From Actinomycetes bacterium (GTDB lineage Bacteria > Actinomycetota > CALGFH01), in contig JASLIH010000438.1 of assembly GCA_030152105.1 (NCBI GenBank), positions 1 through 7,736 on the forward strand: 7,736 nucleotides of DNA, given 5' to 3'. Each line of letters opens with the position of its first letter. Position 1 is the first letter of the stretch. The notes under the pieces are model-generated. The model was given only the letters and a program-made list of their open reading frames with translations. It was not told the origin of the DNA and did not search any database. The position numbers and the translations under genes were made by a program. Below are positions 3,455 to 7,736 of this stretch, piece after piece.

Positions 3455-4378
3455 ATGACGGGCCAGCGACCATCCCGGATCCGGCGGCGGCGCGAGCAGC
3501 TGGAGACGATGCTGGCCGACGGCCAGGCCCGGCTGGAGCGGGCCCGGACGCGGAGTGTGGTGGTGGACACCATGGTCGGGGTGGTCCGGCGCGAGCGCCC
3601 GGTGGCCGTCGGGATCCTGGCCGCCTCCCTGGCCTTCCGGCTGTTCGCCATGGTGATCCCCCTCATTTACGTGCTCGTGGCCGGGCTCGGCTTCGCCGCC
3701 CAGGCGTCCGCCGGCAAGGGCTCGGCCCGCCCCGGGGACGAGCTCGCCGACCTGGTGGTGGCCTCGGTGGCCGACGCCAGCACCAGCTCCGAGCGGGCCC
3801 GCTGGCTGGCCCTGATCCTCGGCGGGGTGGCCACGCTGGTGGCCGCCGCGGCCGTGCTGGAGGTGCTGCGCTGGGTGCACCTGCTGGCCTGGCGGATGGC
3901 CCCGTCCCGGTCGCGGGCCAGCGCCCGGCTGGTGCTCGGGCTGATCGCCGGGGTGGCGGTGGTCGCCACCACCTCGACCCTGGCCGAGCAGGCCCGGGCC
4001 GACGCCAAGGGGCTGGCCACCGAGCTCACGGTGATCCTGCTCAGCGCCGCGGTCCAGGTGGTGGTGCTGGCCGTGCTCTGGCTGGCCCTGTCGTTGGCGA
4101 TGCCACGGCCCCCGAGCGTCCCCTGGACCTCCCTGGTCCCGGGGGCGCTGCTGTTCGGGGCCGGGTTCCAGGGGTTCTCCGTCGCCGTCAGCCTGTGGTT
4201 CGCGCCCCGGGCGGCCAGGGCGTCGACCCTCTACGGGTCGCTCGGGGTGGCCCTGGTCCTGCTGGTGTCGCTGTTCCTGTTCGCCCGCCTGGCCGTGGCC
4301 GCGGCCGAGCTCAACGCCACCCTGGTGGAGCGCCGCCGCCTGGAGCGAGAGTCGGCGGACATCACCCTCGGAGGGTGA
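3455..4378 (+). CDS. YihY/BrkB-family inner membrane protein
   Basis: This 307-residue protein has a basic N-terminal cytoplasmic segment (residues 1-48, rich in Arg), then about six membrane spans (roughly 52-80, 116-140, 158-176, 191-215, 226-248, 261-285). The C-terminal signature STLYGSLGVAL followed by ARLAVAAAELNATL is diagnostic of the YihY/BrkB family. The family was once annotated as ribonuclease BN by mistake, and its function is unsettled; a transport role has been suggested. The ATG at 3455 follows the ZIP stop by 7 nt, so it is probably the last cotranscribed gene of the aldolase-PAP2-ZIP-YihY run. Its final codons and stop overlap the dyad at 4362-4378, so that stretch is both coding and a candidate operator. 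Confidence 0.88.
   Translation: MTGQRPSRIRRRREQLETMLADGQARLERARTRSVVVDTMVGVVRRERPVAVGILAASLAFRLFAMVIPLIYVLVAGLGFAAQASAGKGSARPGDELADLVVASVADASTSSERARWLALILGGVATLVAAAAVLEVLRWVHLLAWRMAPSRSRASARLVLGLIAGVAVVATTSTLAEQARADAKGLATELTVILLSAAVQVVVLAVLWLALSLAMPRPPSVPWTSLVPGALLFGAGFQGFSVAVSLWFAPRAARASTLYGSLGVALVLLVSLFLFARLAVAAAELNATLVERRRLERESADITLGG
4362..4378. promoter_or_regulatory. Candidate operator, TCACCC-N5-GGGTGA dyad overlapping the yihY-like stop
   Basis: TCACCCTCGGAGGGTGA is a perfect inverted repeat whose match extends two more bases on each side (4360-4380), giving 10-bp arms around one central base at 4370. The same two half-sites with the same 5-nt spacer occur twice in the array at 5283-5343. 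It ends 59 nt before the ATG at 4438; the last TCACCC-N5-GGGTGA unit of the other array ends 58 nt before its ATG at 5389. The shared half-sites, spacer and distance support an operator for the downstream gene. A hairpin terminator for the upstream operon is an alternative, but there is no T-run after it. Confidence 0.6.
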
Positions 4379-4437
4379 TGTATCTCGCCCGGCCGTGCGA
4401 GAGCCTGCCGGGGTCCGCCAGCGATCGAGGTGATGTC

Positions 4438-4944
4438 ATGGCGTCGGACGATCCCGCCCTCACCGGCGACGAGCGTGCCGAACCGGAGCGGTTGCGGGCC
4501 GAGAACACGGCCCTGCCCGCCCAGGGACAGGCGGCCGGCCCCCGGCCCGGCGGGCGCCAGCGGTGGCGCACCATCGTGGCCAGCCTGCTGATCGTGCTCG
4601 GCTGCGTGCTCGCCCCGCTGTCGGTGGTGGCCGTCTGGACCGCAACCAGGTCACCAACACCGACCGGTACGTGACCACGGTGGCCCCGCTGGCCAGCGAC
4701 CCGGCCATCCAGCAGGCCATCGCCGACCAGGTGACCGCCCAGGTGCTCACCTACCTTGACGTGCCCGGCGTGACCAACCAGGTGGTCGACGCCCTGGCCG
4801 AGCGGGGCCTGACCCGGCTGCTGGCCACCCGGCAAGGTCGTGCTCGGCCTCACCCTGGCCCTGCTGGTGGTGCTTGCCCTGATCGAGTTCCTGGGCCGCC
4901 GGCCGGTCGACGCCCCTGTCGAGGCCCAGGCCCCAGTGGAGTGA
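4438..4944 (+). pseudogene. Actinobacterial two-membrane-segment protein of unknown function, frameshifted and missing its middle
   Basis: The ATG at 4438 has GAGG at 4427-4430. Its frame gives 68 sensible residues: a charged Glu/Arg-rich start, then a membrane segment at about 45-67 ending SVVAVWT, followed by nonsense. The shifted frame, from 4641, continues RNQVTNTDRYVTTVAPLASD and DPAIQQAIADQVTAQVL, the conserved extracytoplasmic part of a common actinobacterial membrane protein. One missing C in the run at 4639-4641 restores this join. After about 4828 the original frame resumes with KVVLGLTLALLVVLALIEFL, the C-terminal membrane segment, and ends at TGA 4942-4944. From memory, intact relatives run to about 400 residues, so around 250-300 residues between ERGLTRLLATR and PGKVVLG appear lost. 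I know no established function. It lies behind the candidate operator at 4362-4378. Confidence 0.72.
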
Positions 4945-4991: not shown

Positions 4992-5228
4992 TCAGGCTTG
5001 CTCTTCCTCCTCCGGCGGGTCCGGGAGCCGCCGGACCTCGACCAGCTCCAGGCCGAGGGCCTGGATGCGGTCGAGGAGCCCGTACAGGGCCGCCTGGTCC
5101 AGGACCGGGCCGTGGATCACCGTCTCCACCGGTTCCACCGACGCCCGCATGCCCTCGAAGGCGGCCATCAGCGAGTCGCTCAGGCGTCCCTTGACGCGGA
5201 TCTCGTAGCTGGCTCCTTCACGAGACAC
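4992..5228 (-). CDS. Small conserved protein of unknown function (78 aa)
   Basis: The product begins MSREGASYEIRVKGRLSDSL and ends with an acidic tail PPEEEEQA. I recognise the general look (YEIRVKGRLSDSL, FEGM, VEPVETVIHGPVLDQAALYG, LLDRIQALGLELVEV) from actinobacterial hypothetical proteins but know no function. The pattern suggests strand, helix, strand, helix, strand, a compact alpha/beta fold of the ferredoxin-like size class; there is no signal peptide or membrane segment. The GTG at 5228-5226 was chosen because AGGAGG lies 6 nt upstream on this strand. The same frame stays open to an ATG at 5390, but that extension is low-complexity, lacks a ribosome site and would run through the operator array and over the opposite gene's start. 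It is divergent from the GAP/HdeD unit and probably shares the array at 5283-5343. Confidence 0.8.
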   Translation of the reverse strand: MSREGASYEIRVKGRLSDSLMAAFEGMRASVEPVETVIHGPVLDQAALYGLLDRIQALGLELVEVRRLPDPPEEEEQA

Positions 5229-5240: not shown

Positions 5241-5268
5241 CGACCGGCCCCAAGCGGCTGCCTCCGAT

Positions 5269-5280
5269 GGTGGCGCCACC
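5269..5280. repeat. 12-bp perfect palindrome beside the operator array
   Basis: GGTGGCGCCACC is a perfect palindrome with no spacer, lying two bases left of the array that starts at 5283, on the side of the minus-strand gene. Its right end runs into CACCCGGGGTG, itself a smaller dyad. It may be a second protein site or a degenerate extension of the array; GC-rich palindromes are not rare here, so the role is uncertain. Confidence 0.4.
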
Positions 5281-5282
5281 CG

Positions 5283-5343
5283 GGGTGACAAGGCTTCACC
5301 CGAACGGGGTGATTCACCCGTCAAGGGTGACGACGGGTCACCC
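5283..5343. promoter_or_regulatory. Symmetric six-half-site operator array between divergent genes
   Basis: Half-sites lie at GGGTGA 5283-5288, TCACCC 5296-5301, GGGTGA 5307-5312, TCACCC 5314-5319, GGGTGA 5325-5330 and TCACCC 5338-5343. Spacers are 7, 5, 1, 5 and 7 nt, so all six sites are mirror-symmetric about base 5313. The spacer sequences themselves are mostly not symmetric, which favours protein binding over an RNA or DNA hairpin. Two TCACCC-N5-GGGTGA units (5296-5312 and 5314-5330) match the lone site at 4362-4378. The array lies 54 nt from the minus-strand GTG at 5228 and 45 nt from the plus-strand ATG at 5389, so it could control both directions. No clear -10/-35 pair is visible. I infer cooperative binding of a dimeric regulator; the LuxR-type protein at 6265-7736 is one candidate. 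Confidence 0.75.
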
Positions 5344-5388
5344 CCGTGGCGGGCATCGTTGGGTCGTCGAGCGTAGGAAGGAGGTGCC

Positions 5389-5650
5389 ATGGGCGCGGCT
5401 GTCGGTGAGGTCCTCGGGGTGGCGTGGTTCCCGGCGGGGAGCAGGCGGTCACCCTGCCGTGTTCGTCGTGATTGGCTCCATAGGTGTGCTTGCTCCGCTG
5501 ATCGTCTATCTTGTCGGCGGGCAGCACGCGGCCAGGACCCTCGACACCTGGAAGACGTGGGCCGCCGACCACAACGCCGCCGTCATGGCCGTGCTATTCG
5601 TGGTATTCGGATTCAAGCTTGTTGGTGACGGCATCGCCGTCCTGTTCTGA
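5389..5650 (+). pseudogene. GAP/Sap-family membrane protein remnant, middle deleted and frameshifted
   Basis: The ATG at 5389 follows a strong AAGGAGGT (5378-5385) and encodes MGAAVGEVL, the standard start of GAP-family proteins (related to the mycobacterial sulfolipid-addressing protein Sap). The frame then turns to nonsense. From 5459 another frame encodes 63 residues beginning VFVVIGSIGVLAPLIVYLVG, then ARTLDTWKTW, HNAAVMAVLFVVFG and KLVGDGIAVLF. This is the C-terminal two membrane segments of the same family, ending at TGA 5648-5650. A short third-frame piece, GGEQAVTL (5433-5456), joins the C-terminal part if one G is added to make CTGGCC at 5454-5458. Family members are about 220 residues, so around 130 residues are missing. 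The family is thought to help export or place lipids at the membrane. It sits directly ahead of the HdeD-like gene (11 nt gap), behind the operator array. Confidence 0.75.
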
Positions 5651-5661
5651 AAGGAGATCCC

Positions 5662-6264
5662 ATGAGCGACCTGCCGATGTCCGACCGCATGGCCGGCCTC
5701 GGGTCCAGCGACGCCATCCGCGGGGTGACCCGGGCCTGGTGGCTGTTCCTGATCCTCGGAGTGCTCTGGATCCTGTTCGGGATGTTTGTGCTGTCCTACA
5801 ACGTGGGCAGCCTGCTCGCCCTGGCCATCTTCGCCGGGGTCACCTTCATCATGACCGGCATCAACCAGATCCTGGCCTCTGGCCGGGTCGAGAGCTGGCG
5901 ATGGCTCTACCTGGTCGGCGGGGCCATCTCGATCATCGCCGGGATCATCGCCTTCGTCTGGCCGGGCCGGACGCTGGTGGTCATCTCGGTCGTGCTGGCC
6001 TGGTTCCTGGTCTTCAAGGGCATCGTCGACATCGTCGGCGCCTTCACCAACCACGGCCGTCCCTACTGGTGGGTGGGACTCATCCTGGGGATCCTGGAGC
6101 TGCTGCTCGGCATGTGGGCCGCCGGGTACCCGGGCCGCGCCCTGGTCGTGTTCGTCAACCTGGTCGGCATCTACGCCATCTTCTACGGCTTCACCGAGCT
6201 GTTCGCCGCCTTCGACCTGCGCGGGCTCGGGCGCCAGCTCGACCGGGAGCGGCCAGCCATCTGA
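5662..6264 (+). CDS. HdeD-family (DUF308) membrane protein
   Basis: This 200-residue protein has six predicted membrane spans in three hairpin pairs (roughly 25-44, 50-70, 81-100, 105-125, 136-155, 160-182), the repeated DUF308 arrangement of HdeD. The repeats are visible as similar phrases: LGVLWILFGMFVL, GGAISIIAGIIAFVWPGRTL and LGILELLLGMWAAGYPGRAL, where the W-P-G-R or Y-P-G-R turns recur. HdeD is linked to acid resistance in enteric bacteria; in actinomycetes its role is not established. The start is the ATG at 5662 with AAAGGAG at 5650-5656, overlapping the stop of the GAP remnant, so the two form one transcription unit behind the operator array. Its TGA (6262-6264) touches the stop of the convergent regulator. 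Confidence 0.9.
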   Translation: MSDLPMSDRMAGLGSSDAIRGVTRAWWLFLILGVLWILFGMFVLSYNVGSLLALAIFAGVTFIMTGINQILASGRVESWRWLYLVGGAISIIAGIIAFVWPGRTLVVISVVLAWFLVFKGIVDIVGAFTNHGRPYWWVGLILGILELLLGMWAAGYPGRALVVFVNLVGIYAIFYGFTELFAAFDLRGLGRQLDRERPAI

Positions 6265-7736
6265 TCAGAGCAGCTGGAGCTGACGGGCGCGCTTGACGGC
6301 GTCCCAGCGACGGTTGGTGTCGAGCTTGCGGTAGATGCTCTTGATGTGGGTCTTGACGGTGTTGAGGGAGACGTAGAGCTCGTCGGCGATCTCACCGGCC
6401 GACAGCCGGCTGGAGAGATACCGCAGCACCACCTGCTCGCGCTCGCTGAGCGGCACCACCAACGCCGCCGGGCCGGCGGGCTCGGCCGACCTGAGCCGCT
6501 CCAGCAGCGCGCCGACCAGCGGGTGGTGGGTGTTGTCCCAGTGCAGGTGGTCGGCCAGCAGCTGGCGCACCGGTGCTCCACCCTCGACGAAGGCACGGCG
6601 GTAGCCCTCGGGCGCGGCCAGGTCGAGGGCCCGCCGTAGCGCGCCGACGGCGGCGGCGTGGTCGGCCAGCTCCCGGTTGGCCACGGCCGCGACCAGGTTG
6701 GCCTCGATCGCCAGCGACGGCGCGAGCGCTCCCCCGCCCGGCTCGCTGGCCAGCAGCGGGGCCAGTGTGCGCACGGCCGCCATGGGGTCGCCCTTGGCGA
6801 GCTGGAGCCGGCCCAGCACGACCGTCTCCACCGCCGGCCGCGGCCGGTCGCCGGGGCCGAGGGCGGCCAGGGCCGCCTCGTCGTCGCCGGCCGTGGCCAG
6901 CAGCCTGGCCCTGGCCGCCCTGGCCGCGGCGGCCAGCAGCCGGGGGGGCCGGCCGCCGATGGCGGCGATGGCGACATCGAGGTGGCGCAGGGCGGCACTG
7001 GCCTGGTCGCCGCCTGACGCCGCGGCCATCCAGCCGCCCAGGACGGCCGCGGCCAGCCGCAGCGGGCGGTCGCCGGGGAGGGCGGCCCGGGTTGCCAGGT
7101 CGAGGGCGGCCCAGGCGGCGGGCAGGTCGTCGCGGTGGTAGGCGCACACGGCGGTGGCCAGCTGGGCGCAGGCCAGCTGGGGGCTGGCCGACCAGGCGAC
7201 CCCCCTGGCCCGCTCGCTGGCCAGCCGGGCCAGCTCGCCAGCCTGGTCGAGGCGCCCCCGGACCGCCTCGAGCAGGGCCAGGTTGGCGACAGCGGCCACC
7301 CTGATGACCTGGCGGCCGGTCCGGTCGGCGTCGGCCCGGGCCCGCTCCAGGTTGGCCGCGGCCTCCTCCAGCTGGCCGCTCCACAGCTGGGTCGCGCCGA
7401 GCAGGGCGTGGGCGAGCGTCCGCTGGTCGTCGTCGGCGCCGCCCCGTTCCATGGTCAGGGCGCCGTCGGGCGCCAGCAGCTCTCTGGCCGCCGGCCCGGC
7501 CTCGGCGACCTCGCCGGCCAGCCGGGCCCGGTACAGCCGGGCCAGGTGCATCGCCGCTCCCGAGCCGGTGGCCGGCCCGGCGAACGGCGGCTCGGCGGCC
7601 GCGGCCACGCCCAGCCAGGCGTCGGCCTCCTCGAGCTCGCCGAGGGCGAGCCGGCTGAGGGCGGCCACGACGGCCAGCTCTGGGCTGGCCCGCACCCGCT
7701 CGCCGGGCAGGCGCGAGACCAGCTCGCTGAGCGTGG
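6265..7736 (-). CDS. MalT-like LuxR-family (LAL-type) transcriptional regulator, C-terminal part, 5' end outside window
   Basis: The minus-strand frame is open from the right edge (first full codon at 7734) to the TGA at 6267-6265, giving 489 residues. The last 61 residues (6268-6450) are a LuxR-type helix-turn-helix: LSEREQVVLRYLSSRLSAGE, EIADELYVSLNTVKTHIKSI and YRKLDTN. The rest is Ala/Leu/Arg-rich helical repeat sequence (SPELAVVAALSRLALGELEE and similar paired helices), the TPR-like sensor region of MalT-type regulators. By family architecture an AAA/STAND ATPase domain should lie upstream, beyond the window; the whole protein is likely 800-900 residues. A GTG at 7695 could be mistaken for the start, but RLPGERVRASPEL just upstream is typical family sequence, so the gene continues past the edge. 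The ligand is unknown. It converges on the HdeD-like gene. Confidence 0.88.
   Translation of the reverse strand, partial: TLSELVSRLPGERVRASPELAVVAALSRLALGELEEADAWLGVAAAAEPPFAGPATGSGAAMHLARLYRARLAGEVAEAGPAARELLAPDGALTMERGGADDDQRTLAHALLGATQLWSGQLEEAAANLERARADADRTGRQVIRVAAVANLALLEAVRGRLDQAGELARLASERARGVAWSASPQLACAQLATAVCAYHRDDLPAAWAALDLATRAALPGDRPLRLAAAVLGGWMAAASGGDQASAALRHLDVAIAAIGGRPPRLLAAAARAARARLLATAGDDEAALAALGPGDRPRPAVETVVLGRLQLAKGDPMAAVRTLAPLLASEPGGGALAPSLAIEANLVAAVANRELADHAAAVGALRRALDLAAPEGYRRAFVEGGAPVRQLLADHLHWDNTHHPLVGALLERLRSAEPAGPAALVVPLSEREQVVLRYLSSRLSAGEIADELYVSLNTVKTHIKSIYRKLDTNRRWDAVKRARQLQLL

Follow-up and report, generated by a model that had tools for sequence, protein, structure and literature searches.

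A six-half-site array between divergent actinobacterial genes as the probable paired operators of an adjacent MalT-like LAL activator

We propose that an array of six half-sites located between two divergent genes of an Actinomycetes bacterium represents two abutting, mirror-image operators for the adjacent MalT-like LAL activator, each placed at its own class II promoter. The array lies in contig JASLIH010000438.1, whose full 7,736 nucleotides were analysed and are hereafter called the window. From sequence comparisons, we assign this reading a probability of roughly three in four. The LAL activator, encoded at positions 6265-7695 just beyond the HdeD gene, would bind each TCAYCC-N5-GGRTGA unit, presumably by means of paired GerE domains. 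Expression of the 78-aa gene would depend on one operator and that of the SfLAP-HdeD genes on the other. The mirror symmetry about position 5313 would then arise because two identical divergent modules lie 1 bp apart. A third subunit might occupy the outer half-site that is present N7 downstream of each unit, in the spacer between the -35 and -10 elements, where it could stabilise the complex or limit expression when the activator is abundant; either role fits. We infer binding, activation, transcription starts and occupancy by a dimer plus a third subunit. Because the inner half-sites are separated by 1 bp, simultaneous filling of both units may be prevented.

The array spans positions 5283-5343, with no strand assigned, and its GGGTGA/TCACCC half-sites begin at 5283(+), 5296(-), 5307(+), 5314(-), 5325(+) and 5338(-). 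All six are exact, and the spacers of 7, 5, 1, 5 and 7 bp are arranged about a centre at 5313, as had been described in the original prediction and as is borne out by the coordinates. A chance origin is rejected by both shuffles and Markov simulations. Specifically, the window contains 17 half-sites when 6.5 are expected, a number that none of 200 shuffles reached, and when the window was simulated 3000 times with a first-order Markov model, the maximum for any 61-bp stretch was three (10 of the 3000 reached this value). The spacers were also correctly described as mostly asymmetric, given that 6 of their 25 letters equal their own mirror. Several known types of element were considered and set aside. 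Streptomyces Pho boxes are direct repeats of 11 nt, and same-strand half-sites in the array are 18 and 24 bp apart. Likewise, spacing rules out CRP-like sites, which have a spacer of 6 between GTGA and TCAC, and the placement of MerR-type operators, which reside between the -35 and -10 elements. A search of the whole window with Rfam at gathering scores gave no match, and ARAGORN found no tRNA in it. One additional exact N5 unit, not mentioned in the original prediction, is present at 4362-4378 on the plus strand upstream of a broken ORF at 4438, and the homologue of this ORF in locus L036 has two units upstream.

The array is flanked on one side by the 78-aa gene (4992-5228, minus strand, GTG start at 5228) and on the other by an SfLAP gene (5389-5650, plus strand, ATG start at 5389; PF11139, called 'GAP' in the original prediction). 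Beyond the latter are the gene for an HdeD-like DUF308 membrane protein (5662-6264, plus strand) and the MalT-like LuxR/LAL regulator gene (6265-7695, minus strand), of which the window holds the C-terminal part with the TPR_MalT and GerE domains. The 5662-6264 product matches DUF308, and its match to the HdeD equivalog model is below the cut-off of that model. Compared with the full-length copies in loci L017 and L111, the SfLAP gene of the window has lost several hundred internal bases and is frame-broken, which may reflect either a natural deletion or an error of assembly. A membrane-protein gene at 4438-4941, which has in-frame stops, and an ORF at 225-995, presumably resembling DNA ligase, also appear to be frame-broken, and thus errors of assembly or sequencing may be present in the contig.

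When genome contigs were scanned for paired N5 units no more than 30 bp apart, 40 stretches were recovered. A 1-bp centre is present in two of them, L017 and L033, and the full 7-5-1-5-7 layout in L017 only. L017, the orthologous locus from another uncultured actinobacterium, encodes proteins 77-89% identical to those of the window in an unchanged local gene order, and its array at 3540-3600 is identical in layout to that of the window. None of the 36 half-site letters differ between these two arrays versus 9 of the 25 spacer letters (one-sided Fisher P 1.2e-4), which supports the earlier view that selection acts on the half-sites and their spacing. The original prediction had been staked on homologous intergenic regions keeping both features, and L017 keeps both. 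The corresponding array of a third species (G002) reads 7-5-1-4-7, such that it includes one spacer-4 unit, and its last half-site is TCATCC. This species has a second array, with spacers 5-1-5, that is flanked by a gene like the LURP-one-related gene of L041 and, on the other side, by a gene whose first codons resemble those of the ZIP gene in the window. Divergent pairs of units found elsewhere are separated by 12-22 bp, and therefore the 1-bp centre exemplifies a more flexible arrangement and is not a requirement.

Many of the other stretches among the 40 appear to be unrelated repeats, chiefly from metagenome-assembled genomes (MAGs) outside Actinobacteria. In MAGs of Phycisphaerales and of 'bacterium Gpa_12', several palindromes around TCACCCCTTGTGGGTGA resemble one another closely, and those at loci L001, L007, L012, L015, L026, L030, L031 and L037 look like dispersed hairpin repeats rather than operators. 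A different arrangement is present upstream of a distant 78-aa homologue (L055 1168-1446, genome G096), where half-sites with spacers of 11-7 and 0-11-7 are perhaps used by a related regulator with a different geometry.

The consensus of the unit is TCAYCC-N5-GGRTGA, with TCATCC/GGATGA also used in relatives. In G001, the genome that includes L017, the exact N5 palindrome occurs nine times and the reversed pattern, used as a control, does not occur. When the 31 convergent pairs of this genome with spacers of 0-30 were tallied by eye, nine were at N5, five at N0 and four at N15. GGGTGA-N7-TCACCC pairs account for 3 of 31 in the same genome, all on the array contig. An equivalent tally by eye of 40 pairs with spacers of 0-12 in genome G025 gave six at spacer 4 and one at spacer 5, and these spacer-4 pairs are possibly BldM-type sites. 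The relaxed unit is present in 179 of 396 Actinomycetota, mostly with counts of 0-2 per genome. Cultured strains that carry N5 units include Streptomyces mangrovisoli (L032) and Phytoactinopolyspora endophytica (L033), and Actinocatenispora rupis (L027) is another cultured relative.

The two central units, both TCACCC-N5-GGGTGA, are predicted to serve the 78-aa gene (5296-5312, minus strand) and the SfLAP-HdeD genes (5314-5330, plus strand), and each is followed at 23 nt by a -10-like box, which we define as an NANNNT hexamer 22-23 nt downstream of a unit. The predicted box for the 78-aa gene is CACCAT (5267-5272, minus strand, offset 23), and the same box is found in L017 and L111. That for SfLAP is CATCGT (5354-5359, plus strand, offset 23), which is shared with L017 and in L111 is also found 23 nt past the second, spacer-4 unit. 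The additional unit upstream of the 4438 gene is followed by the predicted box GAGCCT (4401-4406, plus strand, offset 22). If the NANNNT hexamer is taken as -12 to -7, the centre of the unit would be at about -43/-44 and would overlap the -35 region. Thus, with the box at 22-23 nt, our test of the DNA letters places the operator at the fixed, -35-overlapping position of class II promoters.

This spacing recurs among other actinobacterial loci. A box at 22-23 nt is present in 24 of 50 directions in the clade of the window, which is the set where the pattern was first seen, in 25 of 82 directions at other actinobacterial double-site loci (versus about 2 at a typical offset), and in 21 of 38 directions at 13 further loci, 11 of which are LAL neighbourhoods (versus 1.1 expected). 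Single units in relatives gave 8 of 56, and at non-actinobacterial loci NANNNT was noted in 12 of 94 directions with no peak at 22-23 nt. Pooling gave 91 units, of which 70 have the box on one side or both. Among 76 boxes, 68 begin with C or G, and such poor -10 elements fit activator-dependent promoters. Start codons, where found, usually reside 20-90 nt past the box, and at several loci each of two divergent genes is preceded by a separate unit and a separate box. A set tested later had boxes at 6 of 11 sites close to LAL genes versus 10 of 30 elsewhere (P 0.19). Boxes are therefore not specific to LAL-linked sites, and some units distant from such genes also resemble promoter sites.

Both outer half-sites fall inside the predicted -35/-10 spacers, between unit and box. 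That of the 78-aa module (5283-5288, minus strand) is N7 from 5296-5312, a distance also seen in L017, L111 and L040, and that of the SfLAP module (5338-5343, plus strand) is N7 from 5314-5330, as in L017 and L040. An exact third half-site at N7 is found in 7 of 76 box-bearing directions, with other offsets represented at most twice each, and allowing one mismatch raises this number to 12 of 76. Among directions without a box, the count is 3 of 106. Five of the seven exact examples come from three orthologous arrays and the other two come from the Actinomadura array L040 (7-5-19-5-7), such that this feature rests on few independent cases. A sulfatase gene near the array in G001 (L118 952-982, contig C376) has a three-half-site promoter with a 6-bp unit spacer (N6), a -10-like box at 23 nt and a third half-site placed as in the SfLAP module.

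The adjacent LuxR-type gene had been named in the original prediction as the candidate regulator, and proximity across genomes supports this choice. The gene is 0.9 kb from the array in the window, and its product matches GerE (6.8e-13) and TPR_MalT (1.4e-15), and thus combines a C-terminal helix-turn-helix domain with MalT-like TPRs. Its orthologue in L017, which is cut at the contig edge, scores 220 bits against an NCBIfam MalT cut-off of 537, a result that falls short of MalT proper. Both copies run into the edge of the sequence, where an N-terminal ATPase domain would be expected, and the relative at L231 scores 31.8 bits for AAA_16 (cut-off 32.6) and 27.9 for AAA_22 (cut-off 27). A profile of eight MalT-like LAL genes, when searched in the 396 Actinomycetota, gave nine matches below 1e-100, with the next at 1e-63. 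Five of these nine are in genomes that supplied profile rows, some of which were chosen for nearby units, and for those the scores and the proximity are not independent. Each of the nine genomes with a match below 1e-100 has at least one unit. When the threshold is relaxed to 1e-40, 16 of 48 genomes are without a unit, and all 16 are among the 39 weaker matches.

Proximity was assessed in the 13 genomes that have both a LAL gene below 1e-40 and listed unit positions. In these genomes, 19 of 43 units lie no more than 10 kb from the LAL gene, versus 0.16 expected, and after removal of the three profile genomes the count is 14 of 33 units in 10 genomes, versus 0.12 expected. An earlier set of 10 genomes that included G267 and G235 gave 15 of 40 within this distance. 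G025 and G298 each have a single unit, which lies no more than 4 kb from the LAL gene, and three of the four units of G085 are within 7 kb. The exceptions with respect to the best LAL gene are G204 (0 of 4), G011 (0 of 1) and G032 (0 of 2), and in G267 there is no unit on the 9-kb contig of the LAL gene. Some genomes without a close LAL relative nevertheless have several units (10 in G050, 8 in G097, 7 in G171 and 5 in G352), and therefore another regulator may use the same DNA word. Furthermore, the unit-adjacent LAL genes of L044 and L117 encode GerE domains that are less like that of the window, and thus proximity alone is no proof for each pair. The association between LAL genes and units is strong within the close subclade but becomes loose among more distant LAL relatives.

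Genomes with several units and no close LAL relative are what might be expected if the units serve as operators for a BldM-like NarL/FixJ response regulator that is encoded elsewhere, rather than for the neighbouring LAL protein, and the BldM Group I consensus TCACcCgnncGgGTGA indeed includes the same half-site (as given in the available part of PMC4125116). We judge this attribution to be quite improbable, given that BldM uses a spacer of 4, whereas G001 has no exact spacer-4 pair and nine at spacer 5, and that units adjoin LAL genes far above expectation. The original prediction instead favoured a six-site multimer or a loop, in which all half-sites are filled by one regulator as a single cooperative complex and the symmetry of the spacing is itself the signal. 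The exact 7-5-1-5-7 layout in two species and the near-match in a third speak for such a complex, but we consider it unlikely, because lone units with the same distance to the -10 box are common and because the 12-22 bp between units of other divergent pairs make the 1-bp centre dispensable. One unit for each divergent promoter accounts for the pattern, and thus a larger assembly is not needed.

It is also conceivable that half-sites in the -35/-10 spacer block RNA polymerase and that the array consists of repressor operators, as the location of the outer half-sites within the predicted spacers of both promoters might suggest. This, too, seems an improbable function, since a half-site in the spacer is rare among box-bearing directions even when one mismatch is allowed, and since the unit is at an activator position near weak -10 boxes. 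Far more remote is the proposal that RNA hairpins or a mobile repeat account for the palindromes. Hairpin-like, multi-copy versions do occur in several MAGs outside Actinobacteria, but the predicted starts are outside the array, the spacers diverge while the half-sites are kept, and single units are found upstream of many different genes. We favour paired operators for the LAL activator.

The predicted first genes downstream of units include those that encode DUF7144, SHOCT/PLDc_N, DUF308 (HdeD), DUF6325, DUF1269, SulP, LURP-one-related, SfLAP, DUF1254, glycosyl hydrolase 15 and sulfatase-modifying enzyme proteins, as well as members of the 78-aa family; no maltose genes are among the named targets. 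The 78-aa protein has no match in Pfam or NCBIfam. Its structural model (mean pLDDT 85.7) has the order strand-helix-strand-strand-helix-strand and predicts a ferredoxin-like fold, although fold matches to the model are weak, the best being an ACT domain at E 1.7e-3, and a ligand-related role for this protein is speculation. The family is present in 53 of the 396 genomes and is a common LAL/LuxR neighbour across Actinobacteria (for example at L133, L119 and L056), with a GerE gene near the 78-aa homologue in 28 of 38 fetched loci, most of which reach about 1.5 kb on each side. The search of relatives for TCACCC-N5-GGGTGA that had been suggested earlier recovered the array at the orthologous locus, but only 6 of the 38 loci of the 78-aa family carry the unit. 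We consequently rejected this family as a marker for N5 units, because its occurrence at loci that mostly lack the unit indicates that it marks LAL genes generally.

LAL regulators are numerous in Actinobacteria, and to our knowledge few have a known DNA word. The findings provide one LAL group with a concrete candidate operator, promoter position and target list. Several of the target families are of unknown function, and a shared regulon offers a handle on them. Furthermore, a simple rule is offered for the perfect symmetry of some divergent operator arrays. A wider picture, which we advance tentatively and at less than even odds, is that MalT-like LAL activators with inverted, MalT-box-like N5 pairs control an undescribed regulon for both envelope and stress functions that is widespread in Actinobacteria. 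The locus in the window would then be a compact divergent switch for the membrane proteins and the 78-aa protein, the latter possibly a ligand sensor or an inhibitor of the activator, and the operators of this switch would compete or cooperate through their shared centre and third half-sites.

The original prediction knew of no described operator with this layout, and this holds for the layout as a whole in the literature searched, but BldM shares the half-site, with a spacer of 4 (PMC4125116, available part). In Streptomyces, the BldM Group I operator is a 16-bp palindrome with this spacer and is bound by a BldM homodimer, as described in the same source. The likeness extends to the outward orientation of TCACCC/GGGTGA and to the use of a GerE-type (NarL/FixJ) homodimer on a palindrome, whereas the array units have a spacer of 5 and span 17 bp rather than 16. 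BldM is also an orphan response regulator of development, and the main text of PMC4125116 makes no mention of HdeD or SHOCT. The Streptomyces regulator SCO6993 belongs to the LAL family and gives palindromic footprints, although no consensus could be predicted for it and none of its four quoted sites contains GGGTGA or TCACCC (PMC9628970, available part). Escherichia coli MalT shares the TPR_MalT plus GerE architecture of the window protein, and the MalT box GGA[TG]GA, as quoted in the available part of PMC9628970, resembles the half-site GG[GA]TGA. The array half-sites (GGGTGA) depart from this core, GGATGA is found in relatives, and the units differ from MalT boxes in being inverted pairs with a fixed 5-bp spacer. 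We found no published description of TCACCC-N5-GGGTGA as an operator in the open-access literature searched. Thus, the operator and its regulon are without prior description in the literature searched, and the kind of system to which they belong is already known.
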